A DNA stretch of 64,000 nt. It comes from Stentor roeselii (lineage: Eukaryota; Ciliophora; Heterotrichea; Heterotrichida; Stentoridae). The notes beneath the pieces are model-generated. The model did no database searches and had not been told where the DNA came from. It saw only the letters and a program-made list of their open reading frames with translations. Below, piece after piece: positions 10,010-55,123 of this stretch (position 1 is its first letter; every line of letters starts with the position of its first letter). The DNA lies in contig RSEH01000072.1 of NCBI GenBank assembly GCA_006503475.1, forward strand, positions 108,660-172,659, in the 5' to 3' direction. The position numbers and the translations under genes are program-made.

Positions 10010-10648
10010 ATGGCAGGAAGACGAGAATAGTAAAAAACACTCAGCGATTACTTATTCAAAATTGTGATAATCGGAGATTCAGGAGTAGGAAAATCATGTC
10101 TTCTAATAAGATTCGCAGACGACGCATTCAGTGAAAGTTACATCACGACGATAGGAGTAGACTTTCGTTTCCGCACTCTTCAAGTGGACGACACTTCAGT
10201 GAAGCTTCAAATCGTAACTTCCAAGTAGTGGGACACTGCAGGACAAGAAAGATTCAAAACAATAACAACCGCGTATTACAGAGGCTCAGATGCGATTATG
10301 ATTGTTTTTGATAAGAACAGCCCGGAGTCATTCAAAAATGTTGACAATTGGATGGAAGAAGTCAACAGATATGGACATGAAAATGCTGTAAAAATGCTCA
10401 TTGGAAATAAGTCTGATCTTGGAAACTCGGTATCAAATGAAGAAGCTGAGGCAAAGGCGAGGAACTTTGGAATTGAATATGTTGAAACTAGTGCTAAGAT
10501 GAGTAAACAAGTCGATCTTGCCTTTATGAATGTTGCGAGACAACTTGTTAAGAAAAGAAAAGAAACTGGAGTACCTCCTATACCGAGAATGCCGAAGTTA
10601 GTGCTGGCCAATGATGATAATAAAAATAAGAATGCTGGCTGCTGCTAG
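10010..10648 (+). CDS. RAB1: Rab1-type small GTPase, spliced, 202 aa
   Basis: Three exons, 10010-10029, 10045-10213 and 10229-10648, are joined by two 15-nt introns. The spliced protein starts [20 protein letters not shown] and has the P-loop GDSGVGKS, switch I with TTIGVDF, WDTAGQE, the NKSD guanine motif, ETSAK, and a C-terminal NAGCC for double geranylgeranylation. The EYDYLFK start and [16 protein letters not shown] segment are typical of Rab1/Ypt1, which controls ER-to-Golgi transport. Without splicing the frame stops twice inside conserved motifs, so the introns are well supported. ATG lies 3 bp after the upstream stop. Confidence 0.95.
10030..10044 (+). other. 15-nt intron in Rab1 gene
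   Basis: GTAAAAAACACTCAG, phase 2. Removal joins GAATA to CGATTAC and restores EYDYLFK. A at position 10. Confidence 0.93.
10214..10228 (+). other. 15-nt intron in Rab1 gene
   Basis: GTAACTTCCAAGTAG, phase 0, splits LQI from WDTAGQE. It carries an in-frame TAG if retained. A at position 10. Confidence 0.96.
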
Positions 10649-10861
10649 ATAGACTTGGATTAATTTTGGGTCGGAAGGGTTGATGGATTGGGTATCGGGA
10701 ATTTTTTATGATTGGGGTTGAGTCTTTTTTGGATTTTAGGGGTTGAGTCTATAGGGATTTTTGGGTTTGGGTAAATAAGAATTTATGGTTATTGGTTGTT
10801 TTTGTTATTATTTCCCATGGAAGTGGGGATTCATATTAGAGTTTAATATGAGTTTAAAGGT

Positions 10862-11623
10862 CTATTGAATAATAGTAATGTCTTGAAAGGACTGAGATTT
10901 TATTTCGTTTTTATTTTCAGGTTTAGTTCTTGTATCATTGTTCACTCTGTTGTTCAAGATAAATTCATAAGTTGTTAGTCCTGCTACACTGAGTCTATAA
11001 TGAAATAACAACAAATAAGTAGAAAAGGCCAAAGCCGTTAAAGAATAAACTAAAATCATGACCATCTCAGTCATCCAAGCATATTGATTCTGACTCTTAT
11101 TAACTCTCATTTCAATCTGAACCTTCAAGAAGTACCTATCAATAAAAAAATCAACAAAAAAAACCAAGGCGAACCCAAAAGTCAGTAAAGAATTCAAAGC
11201 CAAGCAACTCAAACTCAAAATAAAATTCCTATAATTTGTTTTTCCGATGCAATTATTAACCCATTTGCAGTGATGATCAAATCCACTGACACATCTATCA
11301 CATTGCATACAATGTTTGCTCTTCAGTGAAACTGAAGACTTGCACAGAGCACAATAAGCGGAATTTCTTTTTGTTTGAACTAAACCAAAAAGACTAAAAG
11401 GATCAGTTGGGTTTGATGCAGTGGTTTTGAATCCGAAGTAAAGGACACTCAGAAAAGATATATGATAAAAAATCAGGTAAATTATCTAATTTTGATTTAC
11501 CTTTATTGCAAGAGGAAGGACTGGGATAAGTGACACTTCGTTTAATGTTAGTTGAACGGCTAACAAAATCCAAAAAATTACTTGGTATGAGTGAAGAGGT
11601 CTTGAAAAACCATTTTTTCTCAT
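10862..11623 (-). CDS. DHHC palmitoyltransferase, spliced, 248 aa
   Basis: Exons are 11623-11501 and 11485-10862 on the minus strand, separated by a 15-nt intron. The enzyme S-acylates Cys residues of membrane proteins. The DHHC Cys-rich domain spans about residues 82-130: paired Cys (CALC, CMQCDRC) and the catalytic DHHC in GFDHHCKWVNNCIG, then NYRNF. Hydrophobic segments occur before it (about residues 16-38 and 42-60) and twice after it, fitting the usual four-helix plan. The C-terminal tail after the last helix is polar. Start ATG 11623 gives a continuous protein with the first helix; without the upstream exon the zinc-binding half would be incomplete. Confidence 0.92.
11486..11500 (-). 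other. 15-nt intron in DHHC gene
   Basis: On the minus strand GTAAATCAAAATTAG, phase 0 after codon 41, with in-frame TAG and A at position 10. It joins two hydrophobic segments of the acyltransferase. Confidence 0.9.
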
Positions 11624-12299
11624 TAGATTATAGCCTTATAGCAACTTAGAGAAGATTGATAAAGGGTAACAGAGGCTGTAGGGTTGTTTAATGATTTTGG
11701 CTTTTATGATGAAGGACTTATCCGTTAGTATTATTGTATTATTAAAGAGTAAAAATATTTTAAAGTAAGTTGTTATGGCATCAGAATAAATTTTAATATT
11801 TTTGGACATAGATATCAAATGATTAAAAGGGAGGAGCAGTATGATTGCTTTACATTGATACATCAATTTTATGACAAATAAGTAGAATAAATTAATATTA
11901 TCTGAAGTAAATTACTTTGATTGTACATAAACAAAGAACTGCTCATCACTTAGAGATTAATATGACTATTTTGAGTTTATTAAAATTGAAGATGAGCATT
12001 CATAGTTTGTAGTTTAGAAATAATAATTGGAATTGGATTTCTTGATTATAATTGATTATAACTATCTTCATTTAAATTCATATTATATGGATATACTCGT
12101 GTTTTAATATTGAATTGTAAGAGATACAATCAATTTTAATAAATTTCTAAATAGGATTATTCATAAGGCTTAACTTCATAAAAGAGGATTTAATTAATTT
12201 TTAGAATCAACGAGCCCTTTCACAAGAGCACTATTCGACTAAAGAATTATGAATCCTCGTTAATACTTGATTAATTATTAAAAAATTCCCATCTGATAC
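11624..12299. other. Intergenic, 676 bp, AT-rich
   Basis: Very AT-rich sequence between two minus-strand genes. The short open frame at 11636-11866 has no coding character. I see no RNA gene, repeat or conserved motif. Confidence 0.55.
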
Positions 12300-12788
12300 C
12301 TACAATAAAATCAAGCAAACCCCAATCAAAATCAAAACAATAATCAACAAAATCTCAGAAAATCCTTTTTTTTCCAACGAAGCAAACCTTTTTTTATACA
12401 TAATCGCCAACCCAGTAACAGCAACTTGCGATTTTTTCCTTTCCAGCTGTAAAATCTGCTGATCGAGCAAAATTTCCCTCATTTTAAGTTCTTCAAGTTT
12501 ATCAAACATATCCCTATAAATCCCTTCAATATAAACCTTCCTCCTTCCAAAGACCTCTTCAAGACACTCAACACTTTCCTGATACTCTTTAAACCAAGCA
12601 GAGTTCTCTTTACTCAAATACTCAACTTCTTCTTTCAATACTTGAATTTCATTAAAAATTACTTGATTTTCATCTTCTAAACACTTGAAAACCCTAAAAT
12701 TTTCCAAGTCCTTCAAAGCAAACTCTAAATTTTCCTTAACCTTGAAGTTGAATTCAATCTCATCTTCAACTTCATTTTTCTTAATCAT
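12300..12788 (-). CDS. Putative tail-anchored coiled-coil protein, 162 aa
   Basis: I start at ATG 12788 (MIKKNEVEDE) because the extra upstream codons begin with TTG. Residues about 10-130 are charged and heptad-like; the final 17 residues (ILLIIVLILIGVCLILL) form one hydrophobic segment at the extreme C terminus, so it should be a tail-anchored membrane protein facing the cytosol, in the manner of SNAREs or tethers. No SNARE-motif central Gln/Arg could be fixed by eye. It follows the RCC1 gene by 21 bp. Confidence 0.7.
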   Translation of the reverse strand: MIKKNEVEDEIEFNFKVKENLEFALKDLENFRVFKCLEDENQVIFNEIQVLKEEVEYLSKENSAWFKEYQESVECLEEVFGRRKVYIEGIYRDMFDKLEELKMREILLDQQILQLERKKSQVAVTGLAIMYKKRFASLEKKGFSEILLIIVLILIGVCLILL

Positions 12789-12809
12789 TATATTCAAAAA
12801 AACTTAAAC

Positions 12810-13892: not shown

Positions 13893-13902
13893 GATAAAGA
13901 AA

Positions 13903-14526: not shown

Positions 14527-14537
14527 ATTGAAATTAA

Positions 14538-15080: not shown

Positions 15081-15130
15081 TATTACTGTGAGTTATTAGA
15101 AATTAAGCATTTTTGAAGAATATTGTAAAA

Positions 15131-16363
15131 ATGAAGGCTGGTCGTAAACCTATGCAAAATTTGAAGAACACTTGTTATATCAACTCTGTTATTCAACTGC
15201 TTTCTCATGTCGATCCTTTCGTTGATCAGGTCCTTGATTTAAAAGACTCTGAAATCGAAAGTACCGAATTCGAGTAATTCAGATTTAGACTCGTCAGAGA
15301 GTTCAAGTCACTTCTTCAGTCCATTTGGGATGATTCAACCAGTCTGATAGTCCCGAAACAGTTCATCACTTCAGTCTTCAACAGAATAAAATCCTTTCCA
15401 CCTTACACCCAGCAAGACTCTCAGGAATTTTTAACGATTTTCTTGGACATTATTGAAAGTCAGGTAAAAAAAATCAGAAAAAATTCGAAAATCGGAGAAA
15501 TTTTTCAAGGGTCTTGTATTATCTCGAATAAATGTTTACAATGTGGAAAAGTCTCAGAAAATACTGACTTTTTCATGCAGTTAACTTTGCCTATTCCTTC
15601 AGCTGAAATGGATAACACCCTTGATTGCCTGCTGAGTAAGACCGAGCGTGAAGTTTACTTGAATCACAGTTTTAGCATGTTCGAAATCTTAAAAAACCCT
15701 TTCAGAAATAACGCTATTCTTAACGTTTATTACTGTCTTAAAGCTTACTTTGATCCTCAGGAATCTGAGATGTTTTGTAACGATTGTGAGACACTTACAG
15801 GGCATTCTTCAAAGTCGCAGTTTAAAAATTGTCCTGATTATCTTTTTTTTAGCTTTAAGAGGTTCAAGTACAGCTTTTGGGCTGGGAAAGTTTCTGATCA
15901 GGTTTATCTTGTAAGTGAACTTAACTTGAAGAACTATGGGTGCCAGGCTGATCAGTCTCAGTATGTCTTAGTCGCTGTTGTTGAACATTGGGGATTTACT
16001 TTCAAGGGACATTATCAGGTTTATATCAACTTTTATGGAGAATGGTGGATTTTTAATGATAAAAGGTATAAAAAATGCTCGTTTCAGAAGGTTTTTAAAG
16101 CTCAGCCTTATATTGCTTTGTATGCACAGAAAGAGAAATGGGATGCAATTTGTAGGGAAAAAGTTAAACATAATGTTGATATTATTGGGGAGAAGATTGA
16201 AAAGATTTTTGGAAGAAGAAGAGGATCGAGTGGTGAAATTCCGTTGGTGGATTTGGAGGAAAGTCAAGGGTTGGTGGTGAATAGCAGGCAAGTTAATCGA
16301 AAGTCAAAAGGTGATGAAGAGATCATTCAAAAAGAGAAGAATGAAATAAGGGAATTTAATTAG
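15131..16363 (+). CDS. Ubiquitin-specific protease (C19), spliced, 405 aa
   Basis: Exons 15131-15273 and 15289-16363 flank one 15-nt intron. The Cys box is near the start (MQNLKNTCYINSVIQLL, catalytic Cys15), followed by PYTQQDSQEFL. The two zinc-binding CxxC pairs are CLQCGK and CNDCE. The His box is GHYQVYINFYGEWWIFND, with the downstream Asp. All parts of a catalytic USP core are therefore present in a near-minimal protein. The last 70 residues are a charged tail of unknown role. Substrates cannot be inferred. Confidence 0.92.
15274..15288 (+). other. 15-nt intron in USP gene
   Basis: GTAATTCAGATTTAG, phase 2, with in-frame TAA if retained and A at position 10. Removal gives FELVREFKSLLQ. 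Confidence 0.93.
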
Positions 16364-16739: not shown

Positions 16740-16829
16740 TTATAACAAAAACATAACATTCAACCCAACCCCAACCCAATAAATCCTCTTCACCAAGTAC
16801 AAACATGAGTATTCAAATGAACCATAAAA

Positions 16830-18363: not shown

Positions 18364-20142
18364 TTATCTAAGCTTCTTTGTTTTGCCTTCGAAGGCTGAT
18401 ATATACCTTTGTTGCGTACCTTCATCCATATATACCTCCATCGATACAATATCTTTATTGTTAACTTTATATTCAGGTGGACGGATTTTCAGCTGGCTAT
18501 CTAAAACTTACTCGATCATCCATTTTATCCTGTCATTATACTCACTTAACGGAAATTTTAAAGTAACTTTCTGCTTTCCCAAGACTTTAAGAGAAAGTTC
18601 ATCTATTTTCATCAAAAGAGTATCACAATTAATCCCAAATTTCGCACTGATTGGAACTATAGGATACGGAGACTCAGCAATAGCAGGAACAAGTGAATCA
18701 GGAGTATCAAGTAAATCAATTTTATTCCAAACTTCCAAATACCTCTTCATTAACTTCTCAGCAGGGTAGTCCAAATCCTTCAATACCTGAAAAACCGTTT
18801 TTTTCTGAACTTCCGTATAAGGATGTGAAATATCCCTAATATGCAACAACAAATCCGCATTCAAAACACCTTCTAAAGTCGATTTAAAAGCTTCAACCAA
18901 TTCATGTGGTAAATCCGAGATAAATCCAACAGTATCCAGAAGAACAGCATAAGTCCCACAAGGCATCATAAGTCTTCGAGCAGTGGTGTTTAAAGTTTGA
19001 AAAAGCATATTTTCACTGACAAGTTTCGCTCCAGTATAATGATTCATAAGTGCAGTTTTTCCAGCATTAGTATATCCAATAATAGCCACAGTCGGATTAT
19101 TCTTCAGTGAAGGGTCTTTCTGCCTCTTTACAAAAAGTTCTTGGGTCTCTTTCAGCTCTGCTCTGAGTTTTGCTTCTCTATCAGTGACGAGCCTTCTTTC
19201 CAACTCCAGTTGAGTCTCTCCTTCTCCACTCATCTTTCCCGATCCTGAAGACCCTCTGGCCTTGGCACTGACAATTTCCATTTCCCGAAGCGCTTCAGTT
19301 TTATAACAGCTCTGAAAAAGTGACATAAGACTTAAAATCGTGTTGTTTTCACCTCGGACCAGGCGAGTTTTAATGTATTTTAAATAAGCGATTTCAAGTT
19401 GTAACTTTGAAGCTTTACTCATTGCTCGTTCTGAGAAGATTCTTAAAATAATTCCAAATCTGTCAATAACTGCAACTTTTTTTTTATTTTCTAAATGTTT
19501 ATTGATTTCTCTGAATGATTTCTACGTTTCTAAGTTTCTTTGTTGTACAGGTGTTAACAGGGTGTTAATGAAAACAGTAGAAATTTTAAAGTTTTTCACA
19601 TGATTCGTGATTTCTACGATCTGATTAAAAGTTACTTTTCCTTTTCCGAAAAAACCTGGAGCGCCTTGTTTTCTTATTCTAACAAGACCACTGACTGCGA
19701 GGTTCTGACGAAGACCTGGATCTGTCCATTCATTAAGTCCTTCAATATCTGAATCTGATCCTTCTGAGTAGTTTTCATGGTCAATCATAAGTTTTCCATT
19801 GAAAAAGTACCCATGAAGGTTGGTTCCATGAACATAAACCTTATCCCAGTTTTTAATCTGCTCACCTTCCACAGTCCTATCATTCATCCCTATTTTCCTT
19901 CCAGAAACCGGAATGACCTGTGCGGATTCAACTACTTCTTGCACCTCTTCAGGGTCTTTTCTCTCTAAAAACGCTGGACCCTGCTCAATACTCCATCCTA
20001 AAGACTTCGCTAGGCCCACTGCTTCTTCCGCCATTGCAAGTTCTCCTTTTTTCCCACGGCTGGGTAGTTCTTACTTGATCCTGAAGATCGGATGCAAAAC
20101 CAGACATCTTTCGCTGAAGGTCCGAAAGAGTTTCAAGAACAT
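18364..20142 (-). CDS. GTPBP6: HflX-family GTPase with mitochondrial presequence, four exons, 577 aa
   Basis: Exons on the minus strand are 20142-20075, 20059-19526, 19510-18512 and 18496-18364, with three 15-nt introns. HflX-type GTPases bind ribosomes and split or recycle them. The N-terminal domain contains GAPGFFGKGKV and LTPVQQRNLE, then KVAVIDRFGIILRIFSERA, a helical arm with GEGETQLELERR, and the G domain: P-loop GYTNAGKTALM, switch I TLNTTARR, DTVGFISDLP and NKIDLL. The first exon adds MFLKLFRTFSERCLVLHPIF, a basic amphipathic sequence that looks like a mitochondrial presequence, as in GTPBP6. Start codon is 10 bp from that of SFT2. Confidence 0.92.
18497..18511 (-). other. 15-nt intron in HflX gene, 3'-most
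   Basis: GTAAGTTTTAGATAG on the minus strand, phase 2, with in-frame TAA. Removal extends the C terminus by 43 residues ending TKKLR. A at position 10. Confidence 0.82.
19511..19525 (-). other. 15-nt intron in HflX gene, middle
   Basis: GTAGAAATCATTCAG on the minus strand, phase 2. It joins PVQQRNLET to EINKHLENKKKVAVIDR, uniting the N-terminal and GTPase halves. A at position 10. Confidence 0.93.
20060..20074 (-). other. 15-nt intron in HflX gene, 5'-most
   Basis: GTAAGAACTACCCAG on the minus strand, phase 2. It joins the presequence exon to NRGKKGELAMAEEA. A at position 10. Confidence 0.85.
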
Positions 20143-27947: not shown

Positions 27948-28847
27948 TTAGCTAAAATCTTCTTCCACTTCTTTATTGATAAACGACTTGGCCTTCAACA
28001 GGACTTTAGTCTTCCACCTATCAATAGGTGTGATTCTATTAAAAGCGTATAAAACAGTTTCAAAGCCATTCACATCATTTCCCCGAATAGCCCCAACCAA
28101 GTCCCTAACAAGTTTATTCTCCCTAGAAGTCTCATAACTAGGATCCTTCATCGAGTACTTATTACTTCCATTTTCCGCTCCAACCAAATCATCATTTGCC
28201 AAATAAAGCAACCCAGCTTTAAAAAACGAGTCCTTCGCTGAGAACCTTGTCAAGTTATGCATCAAGTATCTTTCCCCAACATCTTCAAAAATCTTAATAG
28301 CTTTAATAATAGTCGCAGTATCCAAAGATTCAAAAGTACTCAATTCCGCTACTTTCAATAAACAACTATTCGCAGTAGAGTCGCCATTATCCATTTCATA
28401 CAACTCAGCAGCGTGGGCGTAGTTCTGAGCAGCAAGGCCTAACATCTCATCAGCTTCATAAATCTCGGCGATTTGCTTGCGAAGCCTTGCACCCATAGAG
28501 ATTTTTCCACTAGAAACCATAATTTCAACAGCACGGTTGTAATAAGTGACAGCTTCTGATGTGTTCACTTTTCTTAAAACATTTCCAGCTTCTGAGAAAT
28601 AATTCGCTGCTTCTTCAGGACGACATTCAGCACATTTCACAAAACAAGAGGCGGAGTTTTGGACTATTTATATTTTACAGTCTTTAGCCAAACGGTAAAA
28701 GTTGGCAGCTTGTTTGAAAAACTCGGAAGCTTCTTCTAAACGGTCTTCTTTGTTGCCGAAAACTCTTCCCATAAGTCCTGGCTTTAATTTTTTAACACCT
28801 TTTGCGTAAGCTTCTGAGGCTTGTTTCGCGTACCCTTCTTCTGCCAT
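27948..28847 (-). CDS. NAPA: Alpha-SNAP, spliced, 294 aa
   Basis: Exons 28847-28679 and 28663-27948 are joined across a 15-nt intron. The protein starts MAEEGYAKQASEAYAKGVKK and is an all-helical TPR-like superhelix; RLEEASEFFKQAANFYRLAKD, ECRPEEAANYFSEAGNVLRK, EAVTYYNRAVEIM and KQIAEIYEADEM are family signatures. Alpha-SNAP recruits NSF to SNARE complexes for disassembly after fusion. The final WKTKVLLKAKSFINKE holds the basic/Leu residues that stimulate NSF. Total length equals the usual 295 or so. Confidence 0.93.
28664..28678 (-). other. 15-nt intron in alpha-SNAP gene
   Basis: GTAAAATATAAATAG on the minus strand, phase 1, with in-frame TAA. It joins FYRLAKD to FQNSASCFVKCAE. A at position 10. 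Confidence 0.9.
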
Positions 28848-29681: not shown

Positions 29682-31598
29682 TTATTGGTATAAATGACTG
29701 TAAATCAAGGCATAATACTGGTCTTTTTCCGAGACATCAAAACTCCTTGGAGAGTGAAACGGGGTCCGATACTTGAATATCAAAAACGAATAAAGTGCAG
29801 TTAAAAAACTCGCAACCGACAGAAACCCTCCAATATAAACCAAAACATCGAACCCGCTCGCCATGAAAATCCCAGAGTTGATCCCCTGACTAATGCTTAT
29901 AACAATTAAAAGGTAAAACAAAACCGTTCCTTGCATGAAAGTCCCTGGACCAGGTTCAACTCGATAGACATAAAGCAAGTTATACTTATCCAGCCAGTAT
30001 TTGACAGTCATGAACAAGCAGCCAAAGGGGAGGATGATTGGCATGGAAATGGAAAAGACAAGAGTAATGCAAAGAATAATCAAAACTCGTGAATATTCAT
30101 AAGCGAAGTCAAAAACTGGAGCGGTTTTGAACTCGAATGATTTACGGTATATGTAAAAATCCCATAAAAAATACTGATTCGTTATCGCAAGGTCTAAAAA
30201 GTTACTTCCAAGTGACATGGAAAGAATGAAATTCACGTAAAATTCACCTACTTTCACGATATTCGTTACTAAAGTTATGTTCCACATTGTTATATCGACT
30301 TTTGAAAGCTTTTGAACTACGCTTTCTAAAGTTATTGCCTCTAATAAAGGGAAAAAAATCAGGATTCCTAAACAATATCCGAAGTACTTCAAAAAAGCGT
30401 TTGAAGTTGCTTTGGAGAATAAGAAATGACGCTCTTGGTCTATCAGGAACTTTATTGCAAGGGGAATGATTATTGAGTAAAAGAGACTCGTGAAAAGGGA
30501 TGGAAGGGAGTATGTCAAAAATGATGTCGATTTTTGAGGAAGGTTTAGGTCTTTTAGTAATGATATCACCACTCCTACTAGGGCTAGAGGAGTTAAAAGG
30601 ATCAGAAATATCAGAACGAATAAAATGTTTAGGACTACTTTTGTGAACATACCTGCCATTTCTGAACTTGGCGAATTTTTCCAAAGAATGTCAGAGTAGA
30701 GCGGAGCTTCTTTGATTTTCCATTTGTCCATTCCAACTCCTAAACTCTCATTAGCTTCAAAAGTAGAAATAATAAAGCTCGCAATCATAGGTTGTTTACA
30801 AAGAACAAATCCAAACCCAGCATTTCTCTCACCAACACCATCAGTCCCCTGCCTAAACCTATCCTGAAAACTTTTATCCAAATGCTGATCAAGTAATTGT
30901 TCAACTTTTCCCTCCCTTCCATTAACCTTATCCCTAATAATCCCATCAGCTCCTTTGATCTCAGGAATAACTTTAGCAGAGACAACATTTCCAATAGAAA
31001 AAGTTTCAATTTTTTCTTTAAAAATCGGTTCCAAATGAGCAGGTGATAATTTTTTGGGAAGTCCATAAACCATGACAGTGCATTGCCTTCTATACTCCTC
31101 TTGCATATCTTCAAACTAAATAACCCTCACCCTTGGAAAGTGCTCCGGAGTCCGGTCTTTAAGCTGATAAAACATATAAGCAACGAAATAAACCCCAATA
31201 GAAAAAAAAACACTGCACATTGCAGGGATAAGAAGACTTAAATCATCACTTTGCATTCCTTCAATCGACAATTGCGACAAAGATGAAGCAGATGGAAGCG
31301 GCTGAGAGTCATAAATCGGGACGAGACTAAGAAGAGCGATGACAGAGTAAAGCAGAAGAAGCAAACAAAGAGCCTTTAAAAGTGTCAGGTAGTTGTAAGC
31401 GTCTTGACCTCCCGCTATTGAAATTTCTGTTATTGTGATCGAGTAGACCTGGGCTATTGTCGACGTGATTGACGAGTGAGTCATTTGAGTCCCTGTCACT
31501 ACCCGCTTTTTCCTTGAGTAAAGATAAACCAGAACTAAGAAAATCACGCAAAAGTTCGATATTAAGGTCGTTATCAGAGCTAAAACTCCACGTTCCAT
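29682..31598 (-). CDS. OSCA/TMEM63 (CSC1-like) cation channel, spliced, 633 aa
   Basis: Exons 31598-31131 and 31115-29682. Three N-terminal helices precede a cytosolic RRM-like region (CTVMVYGLPKKLSPAHLEPIF about residues 165-190 and NAGFGFVLCKQP), then a block of about eight helices with PLALVGVVISLL and the pore-region FLWDFYIYRKSF, closing with LFMTVKYWLDKYNLLYVYR. This order is that of OSCA/TMEM63 mechanosensitive, Ca2+-permeable channels. Start ATG 31598 follows TATAA. The start codon faces the K+ channel gene 15 bp away. The splice donor is GTG rather than GTA. Confidence 0.88.
31116..31130 (-). other. 15-nt intron with GTG donor in OSCA/TMEM63 gene
   Basis: GTGAGGGTTATTTAG on the minus strand, phase 0, in-frame TAG. 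Removal joins HFPR to FEDMQEEYRR and unites two halves of the channel. A at position 10. Confidence 0.88.
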
Positions 31599-40926: not shown

Positions 40927-41478
40927 ATGCTCAACATTGACTTAACAATATTTTCTACAACTCGAGGAACTCATCAACCGTCTTCAATCAAAGTCGACAA
41001 AAACACTAAATTAGATGAAGTAAGGACCAAACTTCAAAGATGGGGAGATTATCTTCGATTTACTCATAATGGTTAGGAAAATTTAGGAAAGTTCCTCAGA
41101 GATCCCGTTGACTGGGAAGGAATAAGCGACTGTCGAATTCCAGTCACAATAATTGACTCACCTCTTCCATTTCCTTCCTCTTCAGTCAGACAACCGGTCG
41201 AGAAGTAAGAGAAAATCAGTCAAGTCATCAAGAAGAGAACCGGTAAAGACAAATACGACATGAAAAACTTGATTCACATTCAAGAACTCTTCATGAACTA
41301 CAACTTGAACACTGATGACATGATTGAATTTGCAGAAAAAGCACAAATATCACGAGATTTACTTGACGGGTTAGAAATCTTTAAAGATTTATTGGAAAGT
41401 CCTTTTATTTCACGTCTATTGAAAAACCAAGAGACCTTAAAGGAGATAATTGAGAACCATAAGAACTTATCATCTTAA
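40927..41478 (+). CDS. Small UBL-like plus STI1-like protein, spliced, 173 aa
   Basis: Exons 40927-41071, 41087-41204 and 41220-41478 with two 15-nt introns. The N-terminal 75 residues (MLNIDLTIFSTTRGTHQPSS, then RFTHNGKFLRDPVDWEGISD) look like a ubiquitin-like beta-grasp. The C terminus (LESPFISRLLKNQETLKEII) resembles the STI1 repeat of ubiquilin/DSK2, in which an NP-x-hydrophobic helix pair recurs. A ubiquilin-like shuttle is therefore possible but only tentative. Its TAA stop overlaps the stop of the convergent molybdenum cofactor gene by two bases. Confidence 0.65.
41072..41086 (+). other. 15-nt intron with GTT donor
   Basis: GTTAGGAAAATTTAG, phase 1, in-frame TAG. Removal gives RFTHNGKFLRDP. 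A at position 10; the third base T departs from GTA. Confidence 0.8.
41205..41219 (+). other. 15-nt intron in UBL-like gene
   Basis: GTAAGAGAAAATCAG, phase 2, in-frame TAA. Removal gives RQPVENQVIKKRTG. A at position 10. Confidence 0.85.
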
Positions 41479-43184
41479 TCACCCTTAATTAAAAAAACGA
41501 TATGTGCGACAAGTCCAGAAATGCTTTCAAAACAGTCTTTGACTCCCCCAGGACTACCTGGAAAATTTATTATTAGAGTCCTTCCTCGGATACCTGCCAC
41601 TTGTCTTGATAAACAGGCGAATTCAGTTGACCGAAGCCCGTCATTGATCATTTTCACCACTAGACCATTTGCATTCTTCTCTATCACTGAAAGAGTAGCT
41701 TCAGGTGTTACGTCTCTTGGAGCCATTCCTGTCCCGCCAGTTGTAAATACAACATCACAGGTCTCACAAGCGTCTATAATAACGTTTTTTATTTCTTCTA
41801 GTTCATCAGGAACGACTTTGCACTGAACTTGACAGTTCCAGGTTTCCTCACATCGCAGTTTGAGATAAGGACCAGTGGTATCCTCATAAACACCTTGAAA
41901 AGCGCGATCACTAACAGTAATAACAGCAGCATTTCTAACACTTTTCTTTAATTCTCGATGTTTAGATTTAATTTCAGGAAAAACTGATTCGAAAGAGCCA
42001 AGGAGCAAAGCTTTAACTTGTCCTGTGATTTCACTTTGCAAGTCTGTCTTAGCAGGGATCATTAAAATACAATTAGACCTGACAGTACTGAGAAGTCGTG
42101 ATGACTGTTGAGCCCCTGTACTATTAGCAAGAAACCTGTTATTTTCCCAAATTACAACAGCCCTGTGGTACTCAGGGCGAGGGTCCAATCGCAACTTCTC
42201 ATTCAAATCCACCTGGACAACAGGAAGTCCAGGCAATCCAAGCATATGATCAACAGCAAGTCTAACAAACAAGTAAAAACAAACAAAGCAAGACACAGGG
42301 TTGCCAGGTAAAGCAAAAGCCAAACAATTTCCAATTTTTCCAAATGTCATCGGCTTGCCCGGCTTCATATTCACCCTTCCAAAGACGACCTGTCCTTCCA
42401 ATTCAATGATCGGCTTCACAAAGTCCTTGTCGCCCATGCTGACACCTCCAGAACTGACCCAAAGGTCACATTGTGAGCTCATTTCCTTAATACTTTCCCT
42501 TAAAACCTCGAAATCATCTTGCACTATTCCATAATCTCTAACTTCAACTTCCATTTCCTGCAACAAAAGCTTGAGCATCAATCGATTCGAGTCAATAATT
42601 TGCCCCATTTGAACTACTTGCCCCACGTCTTTCAACTCGCTGCCTGTCGACAAGACCCCGACAACTGGGGCTTTTTTGACCAAGACCTGCGAAAGGCCGA
42701 CAGATGCGAGAAGAGCCAAATGTTGGGCGGTCAAGACTGAGCCTTTCGAGCCGATGAGCTGGCCTTGGCAGATGTCGGACCCGACCTGCCGAATGAACTG
42801 GTTCGCTTTGCATTGAGGGACTTTGATGCGGTCTGAGTGGATTTCGACGTCTTCTACTGGGACTACTGAGTCCGCTTCTGAGGGAAGGGCCGCTCCTGTT
42901 GTGATGTAAAGGCAGTGGCTTAAGGGAAGCGGCTTTGTTGAGTCTCCTGCTCGGATTGGAGAGGAGAGAAGAAGAGTTCCTGGAGAGTCACTGCTTCTTA
43001 ATGCGTAACCGTCCATTGTACTTGCTCGGAATGGAGGAAAGTCAATTGGTGAGTGAATGTCTTCTGCTAAAATACGGTTTAAACTACTTGATAGTGAAAT
43101 TTTCTCGGTTTTGATTGGGGAGATCGAGGATTGAATGAGGGATTTCGCTTCTTCAACGGGGATCATAGGGAATTTACTGAACAT
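41475..43184 (-). CDS. CNX1: Molybdenum cofactor synthesis fusion protein (MoeA-MogA, Cnx1 type), 569 aa
   Basis: The N-terminal E domain (about residues 1-400) has FPPFRASTMDGYALR, GVLSTGSEL, SSGGVSMGDKDFVKP, NMKPGKPMTFG and FALPGNPVSCF, as in MoeA; it inserts molybdate into adenylated molybdopterin. The C-terminal G domain (about 412-569) has ITVSDRAFQGVYEDTTGP and FTTGGTGMAPRDVTPEAT, as in MogA; it adenylates molybdopterin. E then G is the order of plant Cnx1, the reverse of animal gephyrin. Product is molybdenum cofactor for sulfite oxidase, xanthine dehydrogenase and the like. The gene is complete. Confidence 0.94.
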   Translation of the reverse strand: MFSKFPMIPVEEAKSLIQSSISPIKTEKISLSSSLNRILAEDIHSPIDFPPFRASTMDGYALRSSDSPGTLLLSSPIRAGDSTKPLPLSHCLYITTGAALPSEADSVVPVEDVEIHSDRIKVPQCKANQFIRQVGSDICQGQLIGSKGSVLTAQHLALLASVGLSQVLVKKAPVVGVLSTGSELKDVGQVVQMGQIIDSNRLMLKLLLQEMEVEVRDYGIVQDDFEVLRESIKEMSSQCDLWVSSGGVSMGDKDFVKPIIELEGQVVFGRVNMKPGKPMTFGKIGNCLAFALPGNPVSCFVCFYLFVRLAVDHMLGLPGLPVVQVDLNEKLRLDPRPEYHRAVVIWENNRFLANSTGAQQSSRLLSTVRSNCILMIPAKTDLQSEITGQVKALLLGSFESVFPEIKSKHRELKKSVRNAAVITVSDRAFQGVYEDTTGPYLKLRCEETWNCQVQCKVVPDELEEIKNVIIDACETCDVVFTTGGTGMAPRDVTPEATLSVIEKNANGLVVKMINDGLRSTEFACLSRQVAGIRGRTLIINFPGSPGGVKDCFESISGLVAHIVFLIKGD

Positions 43185-43200: not shown

Positions 43201-45255
43201 TCAAATTACATGTTCAGGTCCCAATAAGAACTTCTCAATGATCCTGACCTTTTCACACATGACAGAAGCTTTTAAGTTGATTGCTTTGACCTCACTTCCG
43301 AACTCTGCTAGTTTATTGACGAGTTTTTCAGCTGGACTTTCTTGTTTTTCTTCGTGGTCGGTCTTTTTCTGCCGTCTTACTTGAGTGAAGATGAAATCAT
43401 TGTACATTTCTTTGACTTCCTCATGAGTGTAGTTGACTAACTGCATATCGCTCTTCATGTCGCAAATCTTTACAGCCTGTTCAACAGCGATCGTCAACAA
43501 ATTTTCCTTCTTTCGAGCATTTCTCGCCATTTCTTGCCAAATAGACTGAAACTCATTTTGAATGACGCTGATGCCCTCATAGTTCAAAGCCAGTAAATTG
43601 CAAGGTGAAGTGCAAAAAGCATGAAACTTTCTCTTGCTTTCAAGTAAAACCTCAATATCACCGAAGTGACTTCCTTCTAAGAATGAAACAAAAGCGAAAT
43701 TTCTCTTTTCATGTACAAAACTCACTTTTCCTTTTATTATGAAGTAAATCTCTTCTGGGATGTCATCTTTGAAGTAAATGTGCTCTGAACCTGGAACTCG
43801 AACAGGTGTTAACATCGGGATTATCGCTGTGATGAACACCGGGTCCTTATCCATGAAAAAATTGATTCTGTCAGCAGCTTGTTTATGCATCACGAGAGTA
43901 ACTTCGTATCGTATTTTCATTGGAAGCTCTTCGAAGATATCTTGTTTATTCTTCCAAGAATATCCTTCAACTTCAGTCGAGTACCTCATCGCCGCCTTTA
44001 GTTTACTTTTAAGGTCTTTACTCACATTGCACTCCCTGGCGAACTCGTCGACGTAACTTAGTTTCGTGGTAAGAAGAGCCTCTCTAAATAACGATTACTT
44101 GGTGTCTACTCCGCTCATCATCGAGGCGAGACTTCCAATGGTGAAGGAAAAGAAGCAGATTCCAAAGACCATCCACAGCAAGGCCAAAATGATTTCCAAG
44201 TTGGAACAAGGAGTGATGTCCCCATATCCCACAGTAGAAAGAGTCGTGTAAGTCCAGTACATGCTCGCAATGTACTTGTTGAATGAGCTCTCGTCGAGGT
44301 ATCCGTATTTGAACACCCAGGTGTTCAAAGAAAAATCATTATATTTCGCAGCGAAGTAAAACATGCAGGCCATCACATGACTGCAAATAATAACAGTAAA
44401 AAAAAAACCGATGAACTTCAAATGTGACTCTTTTAAATTCAATAATTCGAAAATGTTTCCTGAGCCTTGTTTGGATCGAAGGTATTTTAATAGCTTCGAA
44501 AGCTTGCAAAGACGGTAAAGTCTTGGAAGTCTTAATAGTCGAAGTAAGTTGTTATAATTGTCACCTTTTCCTTCCATAAACACATCTAAAGGAAAACAAG
44601 CGAAAATGTCAATCAGCAGCCAACCTTTCAAGTACCTTAAAAAAATCTTGTGAAGGCTAAAAACCACTTTGTTCGAATCATCGTAAAACGCGGTGAAACA
44701 CGTTAAAATTAAGTCAGTAAAAAAAAACAGGTTCAAAAGCGAGTCGAGAATCCACCAAATGTCAAAAACTTCTCCGTCAATAAAAGCGACTCGAAAGGGC
44801 ATCACTGTTCCAGTGTAAAACAGAATGAAAATCATGAAAAAGTTCCAAGATTTTGCAAATTTTGACTTGGGATGAATGATAAAACTCGGCTTTGTCAGGA
44901 TTTCAGCTGATGTGCCTATTAACTCGTTTTTTATACTGTGAAGTCGACGGATTCTGTCTTCGAAGTTTTGAATGTTGAATGAATCGTACATCTCGAGTTC
45001 TTTGAAACGTCTTTTTGCAAGTTTTTCTTTTACTTTTATTCGTGCACGTCTCCAGATTTCTCGGTATTTGTAGGAAAAGGGCTGGATTTGGGTTGATGAG
45101 GAGTTGGAATTGTCGGCAAATCGGAATATGTCTAGTTTTTTTTGAATGTTTCTGGGCTTGCTGATCCTTTTTAGACTTAGTTTTTGTCTTTCGGCTTCGA
45201 AGAGGTCCAGGTTGTTTTGAACGAGCTGGGATAAGATCTAAGTACTTTTTACCAT
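43201..45255 (-). CDS. Voltage-gated K+ channel with cyclic-nucleotide-binding domain, 674 aa
   Basis: Exons 45255-45253, 45237-44099 and 44083-43201. Six membrane segments lie about residues 130-360; S4 is NLLRLLRLPRLYRLCKLSKL with regular Arg/Lys spacing, and the filter is TTLSTVGYGDITP. After S6 (MVFGICFFSFTIGSLASMMS) comes a C-linker and a CNBD about residues 455-560 with FIIKGKVSFVHE and FLEGSHFGDIEVLL; the phosphate-cassette Arg is not evident, so ligand binding is open. This is the EAG/HCN/KAT superfamily, common in ciliates. The first exon is only the ATG codon; a second in-frame ATG exists at 44991. Confidence 0.9.
44084..44098 (-). other. 15-nt intron in CNBD K+ channel gene
   Basis: GTAATCGTTATTTAG on the minus strand, phase 2, in-frame TAA. 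It joins SGVDTK, just after S6, to EALLTTKLSYVDEF. A at position 10. Confidence 0.92.
45238..45252 (-). other. 15-nt intron directly after an initiator ATG
   Basis: GTAAAAAGTACTTAG on the minus strand follows the ATG at 45255-45253 with no other coding base. Removal gives MILSQLVQNNLDLFEA and an open frame into the channel. A at position 10. Confidence 0.72.
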
Positions 45256-46958: not shown

Positions 46959-46965
46959 TAACGAA

Positions 46966-49363: not shown

Positions 49364-49380
49364 TTTAAATCTAATTTTAA

Positions 49381-50616
49381 CTACTCCAGCAAGATTTTTT
49401 CAGCTTTTTCATAATCACCCCAGTCTTTGCACAGTGCGAACCTGACAAGTGTTTCTCCAAAATGTTTATTTTCATCAGAAAAAAACGCGGAGCAAGGAAT
49501 AGCTGAGACTTTCAGCTCTTCAGTGATCCATCTGCAGAAGGCGAAGTCAAGAGTGGCATTTTCTTTATATTTATCAGGGATGAAGTCGCCGTTGTCAAGG
49601 ATCCTTGCAGATAAGAAGAAGCCTCCTTCGCTGAGCAAGGGTTGGACCTTGAATTTGTTGGAGTTCTTTAAGATGCGAATGAGGACTTCTCGCTTTTTTA
49701 CGTATTCGTTGAGTAGCCAGGCGTAGTAGTTAGGAAAGCCTTGGTACTCGTTTTCTGCTATTCTTAGTGACCTGGCAATGCCGCCTTGGCATGGCGTGTT
49801 TGAACAGAAACTCGCCCAGACTTTGGCGCAGCTTATCTTACGGACCAAGGCTTCTCCTCCCACCACCCACCCGGTCTTCCAACCTGTTATTGAAAAAAGC
49901 TTGCCGGCACTGGATAAGGTCACACTTCTCTCAAACATGCCTGGCAAGGTGCATAAACTCACGTGAGGACGACCGTCGAAAACTATGTGCTCGTAAACTT
50001 CGTCTGCCACTATTGCCACGTCTGGCCATTTTCGAAGGATCTCTGCTAACTTTTCAAGCTCTTCTAACGTAAAGACTTTACCGATCGGGTTGTTTGGAGT
50101 GTTGAAGAAAAATGCTCGAGTTCGAGGGGTGAAGGCAGCCTCGAGCTTCTCAAAATCGATGGTCCATGCAGAAGAATCATCAATTGGTGGGACCAAACTA
50201 ATTCGGATCGGAATTCCTCCAAAGATAATAATTTGAGGTATATATATATCAAAAGCAGGGTCAATGACGACCACTTCATCTCCAGGATTCAACATTGACA
50301 TTGAGCATAGCATCAAGGCTTCAGAAGCACCGTGAGTCACACTAACTTCTCTATCTGGGTCAATCTGCCGACCGTACTTCTGGCCGTAAACTCTTGAGAT
50401 CTCCTGGGTCAGAAGCTGAAAACCCGATGGTCTGCAGTATTGATTTTCATTGTTGTTTACTGCTTCTGTCAGTGATGATTTTACGAAGTCTTGGCAGATG
50501 AAATTGGGGAAACCTTGCCCAAGATTGACCGCCTGGTGTTTAATTGCCAAAGGAGTAAACTCAGTCCAAACTGTATATTGGAAGGGCTCTAATGAGTCTG
50601 GGAATTTCTTCCACAT
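49381..50616 (-). CDS. KYAT: Kynurenine aminotransferase-like PLP enzyme, copy 1, 411 aa
   Basis: Class I fold aminotransferase. NLGQGFPNF, THGASEALM, DPAFDIY, FNTPNNPIGKVF, ADEVYEHIVFDG and SSAGKLFSITGWKTGW (PLP Lys239) are all in place, matching the kynurenine/glutamine-phenylpyruvate aminotransferase group, also a cysteine beta-lyase in many species. The product from kynurenine would be kynurenate. A tandem paralogue of exactly the same length follows upstream in the genome order at 51039-52274. Complete, with catalytic residues intact. Confidence 0.92.
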   Translation of the reverse strand: MWKKFPDSLEPFQYTVWTEFTPLAIKHQAVNLGQGFPNFICQDFVKSSLTEAVNNNENQYCRPSGFQLLTQEISRVYGQKYGRQIDPDREVSVTHGASEALMLCSMSMLNPGDEVVVIDPAFDIYIPQIIIFGGIPIRISLVPPIDDSSAWTIDFEKLEAAFTPRTRAFFFNTPNNPIGKVFTLEELEKLAEILRKWPDVAIVADEVYEHIVFDGRPHVSLCTLPGMFERSVTLSSAGKLFSITGWKTGWVVGGEALVRKISCAKVWASFCSNTPCQGGIARSLRIAENEYQGFPNYYAWLLNEYVKKREVLIRILKNSNKFKVQPLLSEGGFFLSARILDNGDFIPDKYKENATLDFAFCRWITEELKVSAIPCSAFFSDENKHFGETLVRFALCKDWGDYEKAEKILLE

Positions 50617-51038: not shown

Positions 51039-52274
51039 TTACACCATTAGGATTTTTTCTGCTTTTTCATAATCATCTCTGTCCTTACAAAGTGCAAATC
51101 TGACAATACCTTCCCCATAAGCTTTATTCTTCTCAGAAAAAAACGCTGAGCAAGGAATAGCCGAGAGTTTAAGTTCTTCAGTGCTCCATCTACAAAACGC
51201 AAAATCAAGACTTCCAGTCTCTCTAAACCTATGAGGTATAAACTCTCCTCCATCAAGAATCCTAGCACACAAGAAGAACCCTCCTTCAGACAACAACGGA
51301 GAAAGTCTAACCCGATTAGAAAATTTCAAAATTTTCAAGAGTTTATCTCTATTCCCCTGATACTCATTTCTGATCCACTGATAATAACTCGGAAACCCTT
51401 GATACTCATTCTCAGCAACTTTCAAAGCTCGAGCAATAGCTCCTTGACAGACAGTATTCGAGCAGTAACTAGTCCAAAGTTTTCCTAAATTGACCTTCTT
51501 AATAATATCAGCTCCTCCAACAGCCCAGCCGGTCTTCCACCCAGTGATTGAAAAAATTTTCCCAGCACTGGAAAGCGTCAAAGTACGATCCCACATTCCT
51601 TCAAAAGCGCAGAGACTCACATGTTCTCTGCCGTCAAACAAGACATGCTCATAGACCTCATCAGCAACAACTGCAACATCAGGCCACTTCCTTAAAATAA
51701 ACGCGAATCGGTCAAGTTCTTCACTGGTCATCACCTTGGCGATTGGGTTGTTCGGAGTATTGAAGAAGAAGCCTCGAGTTCTGGAGTTAAAAGCTTTCTC
51801 CAACTTTTCAAAGTCGATTGTCCACGGCGATGTTGAGTCAACTGGAGGATTTAAACTCACTCTTACCGCCTTTCCACCAACTAGCTCCACTTGTGGCTGG
51901 TAAAGGTCAAAGCAAGGGTCAAGCATGACGACTTCGTCGCCTGGATTCAAAAGAGCCATCGCTGCGAGTAGCAAAGCCTCAGTCGCGCCGTATGTCACTG
52001 CGACTTCGTTCGAGGGGTCGATTAAATGGTTGTACTTTTTACTGTAAACTTCGGAGATCTCGCTTTTCAACGGCTCGAAACCTGATGGGGGGCAATATTG
52101 GTTCTCGTCGTTTTCAACTGCTAAGGTCAAGGACGTCTTCACGAAGGCTGGACAGCTGAAGTTGGGGTAACCTTGACCCAGGTTCACGGCTTTGTGTTTT
52201 AGGGCCAGAGGAGTGAATTCGGTCCAGAGACGGTATTGATGAGGTTTCAGGTTTTCAGGCAGTTTTCTCCACAT
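51039..52274 (-). CDS. KYAT: Kynurenine aminotransferase-like PLP enzyme, copy 2, 411 aa
   Basis: Same 411-residue length as its neighbour and alignable over the full chain by eye without gaps, from MWRKLPENLKPHQYRLWTEF to YEKAEKILMV. NLGQGYPNF, TYGATEALL, FNTPNNPIAKVM, ADEVYEHVLFDG and SSAGKIFSITGWKTGW (PLP Lys) are intact. Differences are spread evenly, so the duplication is not recent; substrate-pocket changes such as DPAFDIY to DPCFDLY could mark different specificity. ATG follows CTAATAA. Confidence 0.92.
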   Translation of the reverse strand: MWRKLPENLKPHQYRLWTEFTPLALKHKAVNLGQGYPNFSCPAFVKTSLTLAVENDENQYCPPSGFEPLKSEISEVYSKKYNHLIDPSNEVAVTYGATEALLLAAMALLNPGDEVVMLDPCFDLYQPQVELVGGKAVRVSLNPPVDSTSPWTIDFEKLEKAFNSRTRGFFFNTPNNPIAKVMTSEELDRFAFILRKWPDVAVVADEVYEHVLFDGREHVSLCAFEGMWDRTLTLSSAGKIFSITGWKTGWAVGGADIIKKVNLGKLWTSYCSNTVCQGAIARALKVAENEYQGFPSYYQWIRNEYQGNRDKLLKILKFSNRVRLSPLLSEGGFFLCARILDGGEFIPHRFRETGSLDFAFCRWSTEELKLSAIPCSAFFSEKNKAYGEGIVRFALCKDRDDYEKAEKILMV

Positions 52275-52529
52275 TTATTAGAAATAGAGAATATTTGGGG
52301 TGGGGGGTGGGATAATTAATTTATAGATAAAGGGAGTTTATTTTGTAAGATTATTGAGAATAAAGGGAGTTACTTTTTAGATCTTATTGAGACATGATTA
52401 GTGAATTTATTTAGAGAAGGAATTTGAAACTTTATGTTAAACTTGAAATTATAGGGAAATGGTTCTCATAATAAAGATTAAGTTATTGGTTATTCCTGTT
52501 AAATCATTTATTGTCCTTTAATATTTTAT

Positions 52530-53597
52530 TTATAGAGTAAATCTCAAAGGCTTCTCTTTTTTCCTAATAAACCCGAGAGCAATGCACGTCAACCCAACAA
52601 AAGGCACAACAAGTAAAAACAAGTAATTCGTCGGTTGACTTTCAGCACAAACCACCTGAACCTCCATATTTCCCTTGCGTTCCTTGAGTCTAACAACCTC
52701 TCCAGTTTCTTCCCTGATCCAAGAGTCAACCCTAAAGTTCTCAAAAAATACTTGAAAGACTCTTGCACCTTTATTAAAATAAGGTTCAGGTCCAACCCCA
52801 GCATATCCAGTTTTCCTTCCATAAAAAAGACTAAAATTCCCCAATTTTCCTTCATAGTCATTGAAATGGTCATGTCCAGCAACAAAAGCCAAAACATGAT
52901 CCAATCCTTCTAAGACATACCTCGAATGATCTCCCGGACAAGCCACATCTTCAAACCTGTGTCCTTTAGAAACTGGCCAAAGGTCCATGAATTCAGGTGG
53001 AGGAATATGAACGAAAACCATTCCTGGAATATCTTTTCCGCTACTTATCTTAAAGGCTTCTTGAGTCGAACGAACCCATTCAAGTTGGTCTTGATGGATT
53101 TTGTCATACCCGAACTCGAGATGGTTCCTGTTTCCGGTATCAAGAGCCCAAAGCACCAGTTTAAGCTCTCCTTTGTGTGTGATCGGGACGTAGTAGTTGC
53201 TGCTGTGGCTTAAAGACGAAATTTCTTTGTGTGAAAGACTTAAGGCCTCGAACTCCTCTAATTTCAAAATTTCATTCCCGGATAAGTCGGCCTCGATGTC
53301 GTGGTTTCCTAAGACTAAAGCCCATGGTTTTTTGAACTTTTTCAATGGTTTGATGAACTTCTGGTAACTCTGGTTGAACCACCCTTCAGTCCCCGGCCAC
53401 GCGTATCCACTCACCAGGTCCCCAGTGACGACCACTATGTCAGGGTCTTCCCATCGCAGTTGGTTTTCTATCGCATTTGTGTTGAGGCTGTCTTGAATTT
53501 CTCCTTCTCCGTAGTGCAGATCAGTTAGTTGAAGGATTTTTAAAGAGGAGGATACAATTTCTAAAGACTGGCAGAAGCGGAATAATAAAAGAATCAT
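52530..53597 (-). CDS. Membrane-anchored calcineurin-like metallophosphoesterase, 355 aa
   Basis: A short signal sequence (MILLLFRFCQSLEIVS) is followed by the metallophosphoesterase motifs: ILQLTDLHYGE (D-x-H), VVVTGDLVSG (GD), LVLGNHDIEA (GNHD), MVFVHIPPPEF (H) and FVAGHDHFND (GHDH), the full two-metal site. Layout resembles the DCR2 / purple-acid-phosphatase-29 group. A hydrophobic segment about residues 326-345 (YLFLLVVPFVGLTCIALGFI) and a basic tail RKKEK would anchor it to a membrane with the enzyme in the lumen or outside. Substrate unknown. Confidence 0.88.
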   Translation of the reverse strand: MILLLFRFCQSLEIVSSSLKILQLTDLHYGEGEIQDSLNTNAIENQLRWEDPDIVVVTGDLVSGYAWPGTEGWFNQSYQKFIKPLKKFKKPWALVLGNHDIEADLSGNEILKLEEFEALSLSHKEISSLSHSSNYYVPITHKGELKLVLWALDTGNRNHLEFGYDKIHQDQLEWVRSTQEAFKISSGKDIPGMVFVHIPPPEFMDLWPVSKGHRFEDVACPGDHSRYVLEGLDHVLAFVAGHDHFNDYEGKLGNFSLFYGRKTGYAGVGPEPYFNKGARVFQVFFENFRVDSWIREETGEVVRLKERKGNMEVQVVCAESQPTNYLFLLVVPFVGLTCIALGFIRKKEKPLRFTL

Positions 53598-53827
53598 TTT
53601 TTGAAGGCATCTTGAGAATAAGATTAGTTGATAAAGTTGTTGAGAAGGGAAATAATGAAAGAGAGGACTTTGGGGTTGATAGAGAAATAATCTGAAAAAT
53701 TTAGACCTTCATATATTTAAGCTTTGAAGAATAAAGAAATTAAGTATTTGAATGTAACTTTCACTAGAAATTGATAAAATTTCCCATTTTGAACCACTAT
53801 CCGTTACTCAATGTAGCAAGATCATAA

Positions 53828-55123
53828 ATGTCAAGACCTGGGAATATTGGAATCCTCTCTTATGAGTTTTACATTCCGAATACATACGTAAATCAGACAG
53901 AATTCGAAGCATTCAACAAAGAGGGAAAAGGAAAATACTCATCAGGTCTCGGGCAATTGGAAATGGCAGCAGTGGGAGACCGAGAAGACATAAACTCAAT
54001 AGCAGCGACAGTTCTAATAAACCTTCTAGAAAAAAACTCAATTCCAGCAAGTAACATCGGCCGTTTAGAAGTCGGAACTGAGACATTCCAAGACAAGTCA
54101 AAATCAACGAAGACCTTTTTAATGGACTACCTTCAAGGGAACAGTTCAGTTGAAGGAATAACTGCAGTCAATGCCTGCTACGGAGCCATTCAAGCACTCT
54201 TCAACAGTGTTGCTTGGATCGAAAGTTCAAGTTGGGACGGGCGCTTGGCGATCGTGATAGCAGCGGACATCGCGATTTACGAAGCAGGCCCAGCAAGAGC
54301 GACAGGAGGAGCAGGGGCAGTCGCCTTGTTGATCGGTCCGAACGCTCCTCTCGTCCTGGAGCCTCTGCGCAGCACTTACATGGAAAACGCTTGGGACTTT
54401 TACAAGCCGATCCCTTCAAGCGAATATCCAGTGGTTGACGGGCAGTTTTCTCTCAAGTGCTACTTGAAGGCCATTTCAGAGTGTTTCCGATCACTTAAGC
54501 AAAAGACAGGAATTTCTAATGTTCAGAACTTGGCAGATTTTTACTGCTTCCATGCACCTTACATGAAACTCACTCTTAAAAGCTTCACGCATATCGTCAC
54601 TGAAGAAATGAAGTAAAAGTCATTCAGCGCTGCAGGGAAACAACCCGCGGAAGTCGTGAATAAAGCTGTTAAAGAGCTCTGGACTGGAAAAGTAAAACTT
54701 AAATAGTGTGAAAAAGCGACTCTTGCCGGGCAAAAAGTTGGAAATATCTACTCCGGGTCGCTACTTCTGTCACTTGGGTCGTTACTTGCTGGGCAGGACT
54801 TAAGAGCGGTGAGATTTAAGTAGGGTCAGACTATTGCGATGTTCGCTTATGGCTCAGGACTTGCTGCTTCCATGTTTCGCCTTAGAGCTGTCAGGGACTT
54901 GCCCAAGAATCCTGAACTTTTTGCTGTTTTGGCCTCGCGCATTAAAATTTCGCCTGAGGAGTACACTAGGAGAATGCTTGAAAGAGAAAAAAACTATGAG
55001 AAGAAAAACTTTACCACTGTTGATAGTTTGACTGAACTTCGACCTGGAACTGTTTATCTTGAAAAAGTTGATGATAGGTGGAGAAGGTTTTATAAACGCG
55101 TGGATAACAGACCCAGAATTTAG
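53828..55123 (+). CDS. HMGCS: Hydroxymethylglutaryl-CoA synthase, four exons, 416 aa
   Basis: Exons 53828-54612, 54628-54691, 54707-54808 and 54824-55123 with three 15-nt introns. Condenses acetyl-CoA with acetoacetyl-CoA to HMG-CoA, the entry to the mevalonate pathway. Catalytic residues: Glu81 in GRLEVGTET, Cys117 in AVNACYGA, His242 in FYCFHAPYMKL. Spliced C-terminal parts give KVGNIYSGSLLLSLGSLLAG, then MFAYGSGLAASMF and PGTVYLEKVDDRWRRFYKR, all family signatures. No obvious mitochondrial presequence, so the cytosolic form is likely. Without splicing the gene looks like three fragments. Confidence 0.95.
54613..54627 (+). other. 15-nt intron 1 in HMG-CoA synthase gene
   Basis: GTAAAAGTCATTCAG, phase 2, in-frame TAA. 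Removal gives TEEMNAAGKQPAEVV. A at position 10. Confidence 0.93.
54692..54706 (+). other. 15-nt intron 2 in HMG-CoA synthase gene
   Basis: GTAAAACTTAAATAG, phase 0, in-frame TAG. Removal gives KELWTGKCEKATLAGQ. A at position 10. Confidence 0.92.
54809..54823 (+). other. 15-nt intron 3, GTG donor, in HMG-CoA synthase gene
   Basis: GTGAGATTTAAGTAG, phase 0, in-frame TAG. Removal gives GQDLRAGQTIAMFAYG. A at position 10; donor is GTG. Confidence 0.88.

Follow-up and report, generated by a model that had tools for sequence, protein, structure and literature searches.

Fifteen-nucleotide introns with an adenine at position 10 in the genome of a heterotrich-like ciliate

Are the introns in a 64,000-nucleotide stretch of ciliate DNA (hereafter, the window) all exactly 15 nt long, do they all carry an adenine at position 10 (A10), and does retention of such an intron always place a stop codon in the reading frame? 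The original prediction held all three to be true. The observation of 15-nt A10 introns in the window is confirmed here, and the reading frames run on once the 15 nt are omitted. We conclude that the segments are almost certainly ordinary spliceosomal introns of the GT-AG type in a heterotrich-like ciliate, reduced to a fixed length of 15 nt. The third claim fares less well.

Introns in the window

Coordinates of single introns were absent from the original prediction, and the set was rebuilt with a Viterbi gene finder that used codon usage trained on long open reading frames (ORFs), could skip a GT..AG segment of 15 nt only, and ignored position 10. This run gave 18 introns for the window, of which 16 lie inside nine genes and span 10030-54823; as count and end points match, these 16 are taken as the set originally described. 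The nine genes encode a Rab protein, a DHHC protein, a USP, an HflX-like GTPase, alpha-SNAP, a CSC1/TMEM63-like protein, a short protein lacking a Pfam match, a channel with a cNMP-binding domain, and HMG-CoA synthase (Table 1). The count of 16 introns of exactly 15 nt in nine genes was thus reproduced by a program blind to position 10, and so was the uniform A10, which is present in 16/16 against a background of 35%. That background (0.352) was measured among all 418 GT-N11-AG segments on both strands of the window; at this rate, the chance of finding A10 in 16/16 is 0.352^16 = 5.6e-8. The two remaining predictions were set aside: 20246 minus has the form GTC..AAG and lacks A10, and 44047 plus is antisense to the channel gene, though A10 is present.

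Table 1. Introns and candidate introns of 15 nt, with the evidence for each. Positions are those of the window unless a locus is named.
Feature	Sequence	Phase	Position	Strand	Evidence
Rab gene	GTAAAAAACACTCAG	2	10030..10044	+	gene finder, both codon models
Rab gene	GTAACTTCCAAGTAG	0	10214..10228	+	gene finder, including free-length run
DHHC gene (weaker)	GTAAATCAAAATTAG	0	11486..11500	-	gene finder, both codon models
USP gene	GTAATTCAGATTTAG	2	15274..15288	+	gene finder, both codon models
HflX-like GTPase	GTAAGTTTTAGATAG	2	18497..18511	-	gene finder, both codon models
HflX-like GTPase	GTAGAAATCATTCAG	2	19511..19525	-	gene finder, including free-length run
HflX-like GTPase, 17th, probably a stop-free intron	GTAACTTTTAATCAG (read VTFNQ)	0	19621..19635	-	motif scan, PDB alignments, Pfam
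HflX-like GTPase	GTAAGAACTACCCAG	2	20060..20074	-	gene finder, both codon models
alpha-SNAP	GTAAAATATAAATAG	1	28664..28678	-	gene finder, including free-length run
CSC1/TMEM63-like gene	GTGAGGGTTATTTAG	0	31116..31130	-	gene finder, including free-length run
Short gene, no Pfam match (weaker)	GTTAGGAAAATTTAG	1	41072..41086	+	gene finder, both codon models
Same short gene (weaker)	GTAAGAGAAAATCAG	2	41205..41219	+	gene finder, both codon models
Ion channel with cNMP-binding domain	GTAATCGTTATTTAG	2	44084..44098	-	gene finder, including free-length run
Same channel gene (weaker)	GTAAAAAGTACTTAG		45238..45252	-	gene finder, first codon model only
HMG-CoA synthase	GTAAAAGTCATTCAG	2	54613..54627	+	gene finder, including free-length run; alignment
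HMG-CoA synthase	GTAAAACTTAAATAG	0	54692..54706	+	gene finder, including free-length run; alignment
HMG-CoA synthase	GTGAGATTTAAGTAG	0	54809..54823	+	gene finder, both codon models
Candidate stop-free intron	GTAAACTCTAAACAG (read VNSKQ)		1545..1559	+	motif score only
Candidate stop-free intron, long cysteine-rich membrane protein	(read VNFKQ)		L017, motif at 2231	+	motif scan
Further candidate stop-free introns			L009, L014, L019		motif scan

The junctions differ in how well they can be judged. Removal of the second Rab intron restores QIWDTAGQE in the protein, and the Rab match to PF00071 rises from 189.8 bits with both introns kept to 201.7 bits when spliced. Splicing likewise raises the alpha-SNAP match to PF14938 from 262.5 to 273.1 bits; that of the USP to PF00443 rises by a negligible ~1 bit, from 157.5 to 158.5. 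In the alignment of HMG-CoA synthase with 2wya, the 54692 junction is crossed ungapped, and a 2-residue gap lies one residue ahead of the 54809 junction. The CSC1/TMEM63-like gene matches its family (PF02714) with 76.8 bits, and its junction falls outside any strong alignment. A second codon model recovered 15/16 introns, losing 45252 and retaining 20246. Four of the 16 are rated weaker: 11500, which sits upstream of the DHHC domain PF01529; 41072, whose donor is GTT, and 41205, both in the short gene for which a Pfam search gave no match; and 45252, directly 3' of the channel gene's start codon.

Taken naively, lengths within the window speak against the claim. Raw counts of GT-N-AG by length show no peak at 15, and an initial test using flanks of 60 nt found 4 matches at 15 nt, but 4 also at 13 and at 41 nt. 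When lengths of 10-60 nt were left free, 15 nt was the commonest in the window, yet it accounted for only 4/11 or 7/22 introns.

The window contains several other features. Two adjacent paralogous class I/II aminotransferase genes lie on the minus strand at 49381-50616 and 51039-52274 (PF00155, 134.9 and 142.6 bits), as do two adjacent cysteine-rich genes at 61081-62640 and 62892-63944, which have a long, nearly identical stretch in common and the first of which has a weak, below-cut-off RING match. Also on the minus strand are an intron-free gene for an ATAD3-like AAA ATPase (57067-58746) and a MoeA/molybdopterin-binding (gephyrin-like) gene (41475-43184). Scans of the window with Rfam (gathering threshold) and for tRNAs found nothing.

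Length and A10 across the genome

Prediction was extended to a 304-kb sample consisting of the window and 24 further 10-kb stretches, of which 19 lie at contig starts. With length left free, 17/47 introns were 15 nt long at the lower cost (the runner-up length had 4) and 13/38 at the higher cost; the free-length 15-nt introns carried A10 in 17/17. When only 15 nt was allowed, 30 introns were predicted, 29 of them with A10, and the GTR..YAG predictions of this position-10-blind run had A10 in 28/28. Donors among these 28 were GTA in 25 and GTG in 3, and acceptors TAG in 21 and CAG in 7, GT..AG itself being imposed by the method. Control lengths of 9, 12, 13, 14, 16, 17, 18, 21 and 24 nt yielded 4, 1, 11, 12, 9, 13, 1, 3 and 5 predictions, respectively, with at most one per length showing the full consensus.

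Patterns can also be counted over the whole assembly, which comprises 44,391,514 bases in 522 contigs (the window lies inside contig C481). On both strands, GTAA-N(x)-A-NN-TAG occurs 867 times at 14 nt, 3,293 times at 15 nt (GTAA-N5-A-NN-TAG), 924 times at 16 nt and 885 times at 17 nt. When the A is exchanged for any other base (C, G or T), the counts become 1,849, 2,342 and 2,595 at 14, 15 and 16 nt. The excess at 15 nt is therefore ~2,400 motifs with A10 and ~120 with another base (range -253 to +493). Shifting the A within 15 nt gives 2,016 motifs for position 11 and 1,365 for position 9, both figures including some motifs in which position 10 is an A as well. Length, A10 and GT..AG are thus jointly constrained across the genome. 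The backward pattern, intended as a control, occurs 2,943, 2,677, 3,406 and 3,096 times at 14, 15 (A10), 16 and 17 nt, and its count at 15 nt is not far under the forward one. Since it is similarly high at every length and the forward counts are not, this control was set aside and lengths were compared instead. Tandem repeats are visible in the motif listings at C18:105907-106233 (one motif per 78 bases) and, as a cluster, at C5:146910-147238, and will have inflated some control counts slightly.

In an A-rich genome, where chance A10 is as frequent as noted above, introns chosen by eye, as they originally were, might owe their A10 to the choosing. We regard this as extremely improbable. Programs that ignored position 10 arrived at the same uniformity (28/28), and the genome counts peak at 15 nt with A10, whereas the non-A count at that length lies between its neighbors at 14 and 16 nt. 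It is further contradicted by the 304-kb sample, in which coding sequence on both sides together with an in-frame stop was found for 27/118 A10 motifs, 1/202 non-A10 motifs and 2/79 motifs at 18 nt (32, 10 and 3 in a looser motif class).

Reassignment of stop codons is common among ciliates, and the segments could in principle be translated as five residues, with TAA and TAG read as sense codons. The 113 long ORFs end in TAA (60), TAG (34) or TGA (19), and strong coding beyond the stop is limited to 7, 5 and 2 of these, respectively; reassignment was rejected on these grounds, and the code is the Stentor-like standard one, with TAA, TAG and TGA all acting as stops. Pfam scores for the Rab protein and alpha-SNAP rise when the segments are removed, not when they are read, and translation leaves the fixed length, GT..AG and A10 unexplained, which makes it very improbable. 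Equally improbable is DNA kept by error, either unexcised germline DNA or assembly indels. Ciliates do excise DNA segments during macronuclear development (cf. PMC9942806), but the ~2,400 surplus motifs share a length, GT..AG termini and A10, which together would amount to a splice signature.

Spliceosomal removal accommodates these observations. The donor would be GTR and the acceptor YAG, and A10 would be the likely branch point, leaving a 10-nt lariat loop and a 5-nt tail; we infer both the removal of the segments from RNA and branching at A10 from sequence. Support comes from the genome counts, the A10 predictions, the Pfam gains for Rab and SNAP, a U2 snRNA and the match to Stentor coeruleus; counted against are the 1-bit gain for the USP, the four weak junctions among the 16, and the backward control of 2,677. 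The U2 snRNA is present in one copy in the assembly (142.6 bits), and its locus contains a GTAGTA box. Among 35 strict-motif introns (L026-L085), positions 8 and 9 seldom hold G (1/35 each), and C or T prevails before A10, resembling a tiny pyrimidine tract.

In-frame stops and a stop-free intron

The original prediction attributed most of the stops to the GTAA donor in phase 2 or the TAG acceptor in phase 0, and this is borne out: these account for 7/16 and 6/16 introns, the others being one GTAG in phase 2 and two introns in phase 1. In the phase-1 intron of alpha-SNAP, the stop is a TAA formed on A10. That retention always gives a stop is likewise true of all 16, but a probable 17th, stop-free one (19635..19621, minus strand) had been overlooked. 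Because a 15-nt intron is a whole number of codons, one that lacks an in-frame stop looks like five extra residues, and a reading based on ORFs is blind to it. We scanned 191 kb of predicted coding sequence for stop-free motifs at 15 nt and at 22 other lengths. At scores of at least 12, 15 nt had 6, and the other lengths averaged 1.6 (range 0-5); at scores of 11 or less, no clear excess at 15 nt was seen (7, with other lengths reaching up to 7). Five of the six top-scoring motifs combine phase 0 with CAG at the acceptor; in this class, no stop arises from the donor or from the acceptor.

One of these segments is read as VTFNQ in the HflX-like protein. Four PDB alignments were shown for this protein, and in the two that span the site (7yla and 5ady, both named GTPase HflX) exactly these five residues are unmatched. 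The PF13167 match rises from 37.4 to 46.8 bits when the segment is left out. As any true insertion would produce such a gain, weight is placed on the coincidence of a five-residue insertion with a complete A10 intron. This supports reading the segment as a stop-free 15-nt intron, and by this evidence the claim that retention always gives a stop is very probably false. For the L017 candidate, no PDB match was found up to E = 1.

Whether stops are nevertheless favored was approached with a stop-blind sample, the first 60 in a listing of 100 of the 3,293 genome motifs, with 300 nt of flank on each side. By the coding signal of the flanks, with internal stops ignored, 26 lie in phase 0, 8 in phase 1, 4 in phase 2 and 13 antisense to coding sequence, and 9 are unclear. 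A stop is present in 35/38 motifs in sense coding context, although in phases 0 and 2 the GTAA..TAG motif itself supplies it. In phase 1, 5/8 contain a stop, compared with 5/26 expected from phase-0 introns read in phase 1 (Fisher p = 0.031). The strict motifs of the 304-kb sample show another split, with 5, 3 and 6 in phases 0, 1 and 2, respectively. Stop-free phase-1 strict motifs number 1 at 15 nt and 2, 4, 5 and 3 at 12, 18, 21 and 24 nt. The phase-1 comparison suggests that stops are favored by selection; it comes from a small sample, in which the three stop-free phase-1 motifs may be chance occurrences in coding sequence.

It is conceivable that the stop within each intron is instead an artifact of discovery, stop-free introns being about as common as composition predicts. 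The original prediction and ORF-based prediction both require a stop, there is support for one stop-free intron, the high-scoring end of the coding-sequence scan shows an excess at 15 nt, and the ratio of phase 0 to phase 2 differs between samples (26:4 among the 60 motifs, 5:6 in 304 kb). We nonetheless consider this reading rather unlikely, given the 35/38 sense-context motifs with a stop, the phase-1 comparison, the flat lower end of the scan and the scarcity of stop-free phase-1 strict motifs at 15 nt relative to the control lengths. Selection may act as follows. With almost all introns spanning exactly five codons, a frame shift cannot flag unspliced mRNA, and an in-frame stop would keep it from being read through. 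The splice signals would double as stops, namely the donor UAA in phase 2, the acceptor UAG in phase 0 and a UAR on the branch-site A in phase 1. This reading, in which introns without a stop are purged and only a few, like that in HflX, survive, seems to us an evenly balanced proposition. A phase-by-phase stop test for heterotrichs was not found in the literature searched; one may exist outside it, for example in Slabodnick 2017 or the Blepharisma supplement.

Tiny introns in heterotrichs and other ciliates

The 15-nt A10 rule is not new, as it is already in print for S. coeruleus. According to PMC9505925, 8,173/8,806 introns of that species are 15 nt and 633/8,806 are 16 nt long, and 8,005 have their branch-point A at position 10, in agreement with the original remark that the 15-nt class is known from heterotrichs. 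The present introns resemble these in length, GT..AG ends, A10, AT-richness and the low number per gene. Lengths of 15/16 bp are given for heterotrichs in PMC9942806 and PMC11441545, and PMC10946202 refers to Slabodnick 2017 for the role of the conserved A as branch point; the passages of PMC7859197 deal with group I introns. The features of heterotrich tiny introns found here are a length of 15 nt (few 16), A10, and GTA donor and YAG acceptor ends. The 16-nt/A11 pattern lies 48 above the mean of 14 and 17 nt (sd ~37), where the S. coeruleus ratio of 442:8005 (PMC9505925) predicts ~133, and free-length prediction in 304 kb returned no 16-nt introns.

Blepharisma stoltei, with introns of 15/16 bp, shares the length class with the present genome, but Blepharisma reads UGA as Trp (PMC9942806). 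Here, coding past TGA is seen in few ORFs, and TGA thus behaves as a stop, which fits Stentor rather than Blepharisma. Loxodes magnus, from the sister group, also has very short introns (mode 17 bp); unlike here, its lengths are spread, introns <16 bp are negligible and 3n lengths are depleted (PMC11441545). In Paramecium and other ciliates, stops are favored in 3n introns, as they appear to be here, but 3n introns are one class among several (PMC5014332 and PMC9612004), whereas in the present genome the dominant length is itself 3n and the stops lie mostly within the splice signals.

Introns of 15 nt are among the shortest known, and pattern counts made without gene models confirm, in a genome of 44.4 Mb, that the length of the introns and the placement of their A are jointly fixed. 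ORF-based gene prediction in such genomes will overlook stop-free introns, leaving five false residues in the proteins. Reading introns blind to stops offers a simple test of whether mRNA surveillance shapes them.
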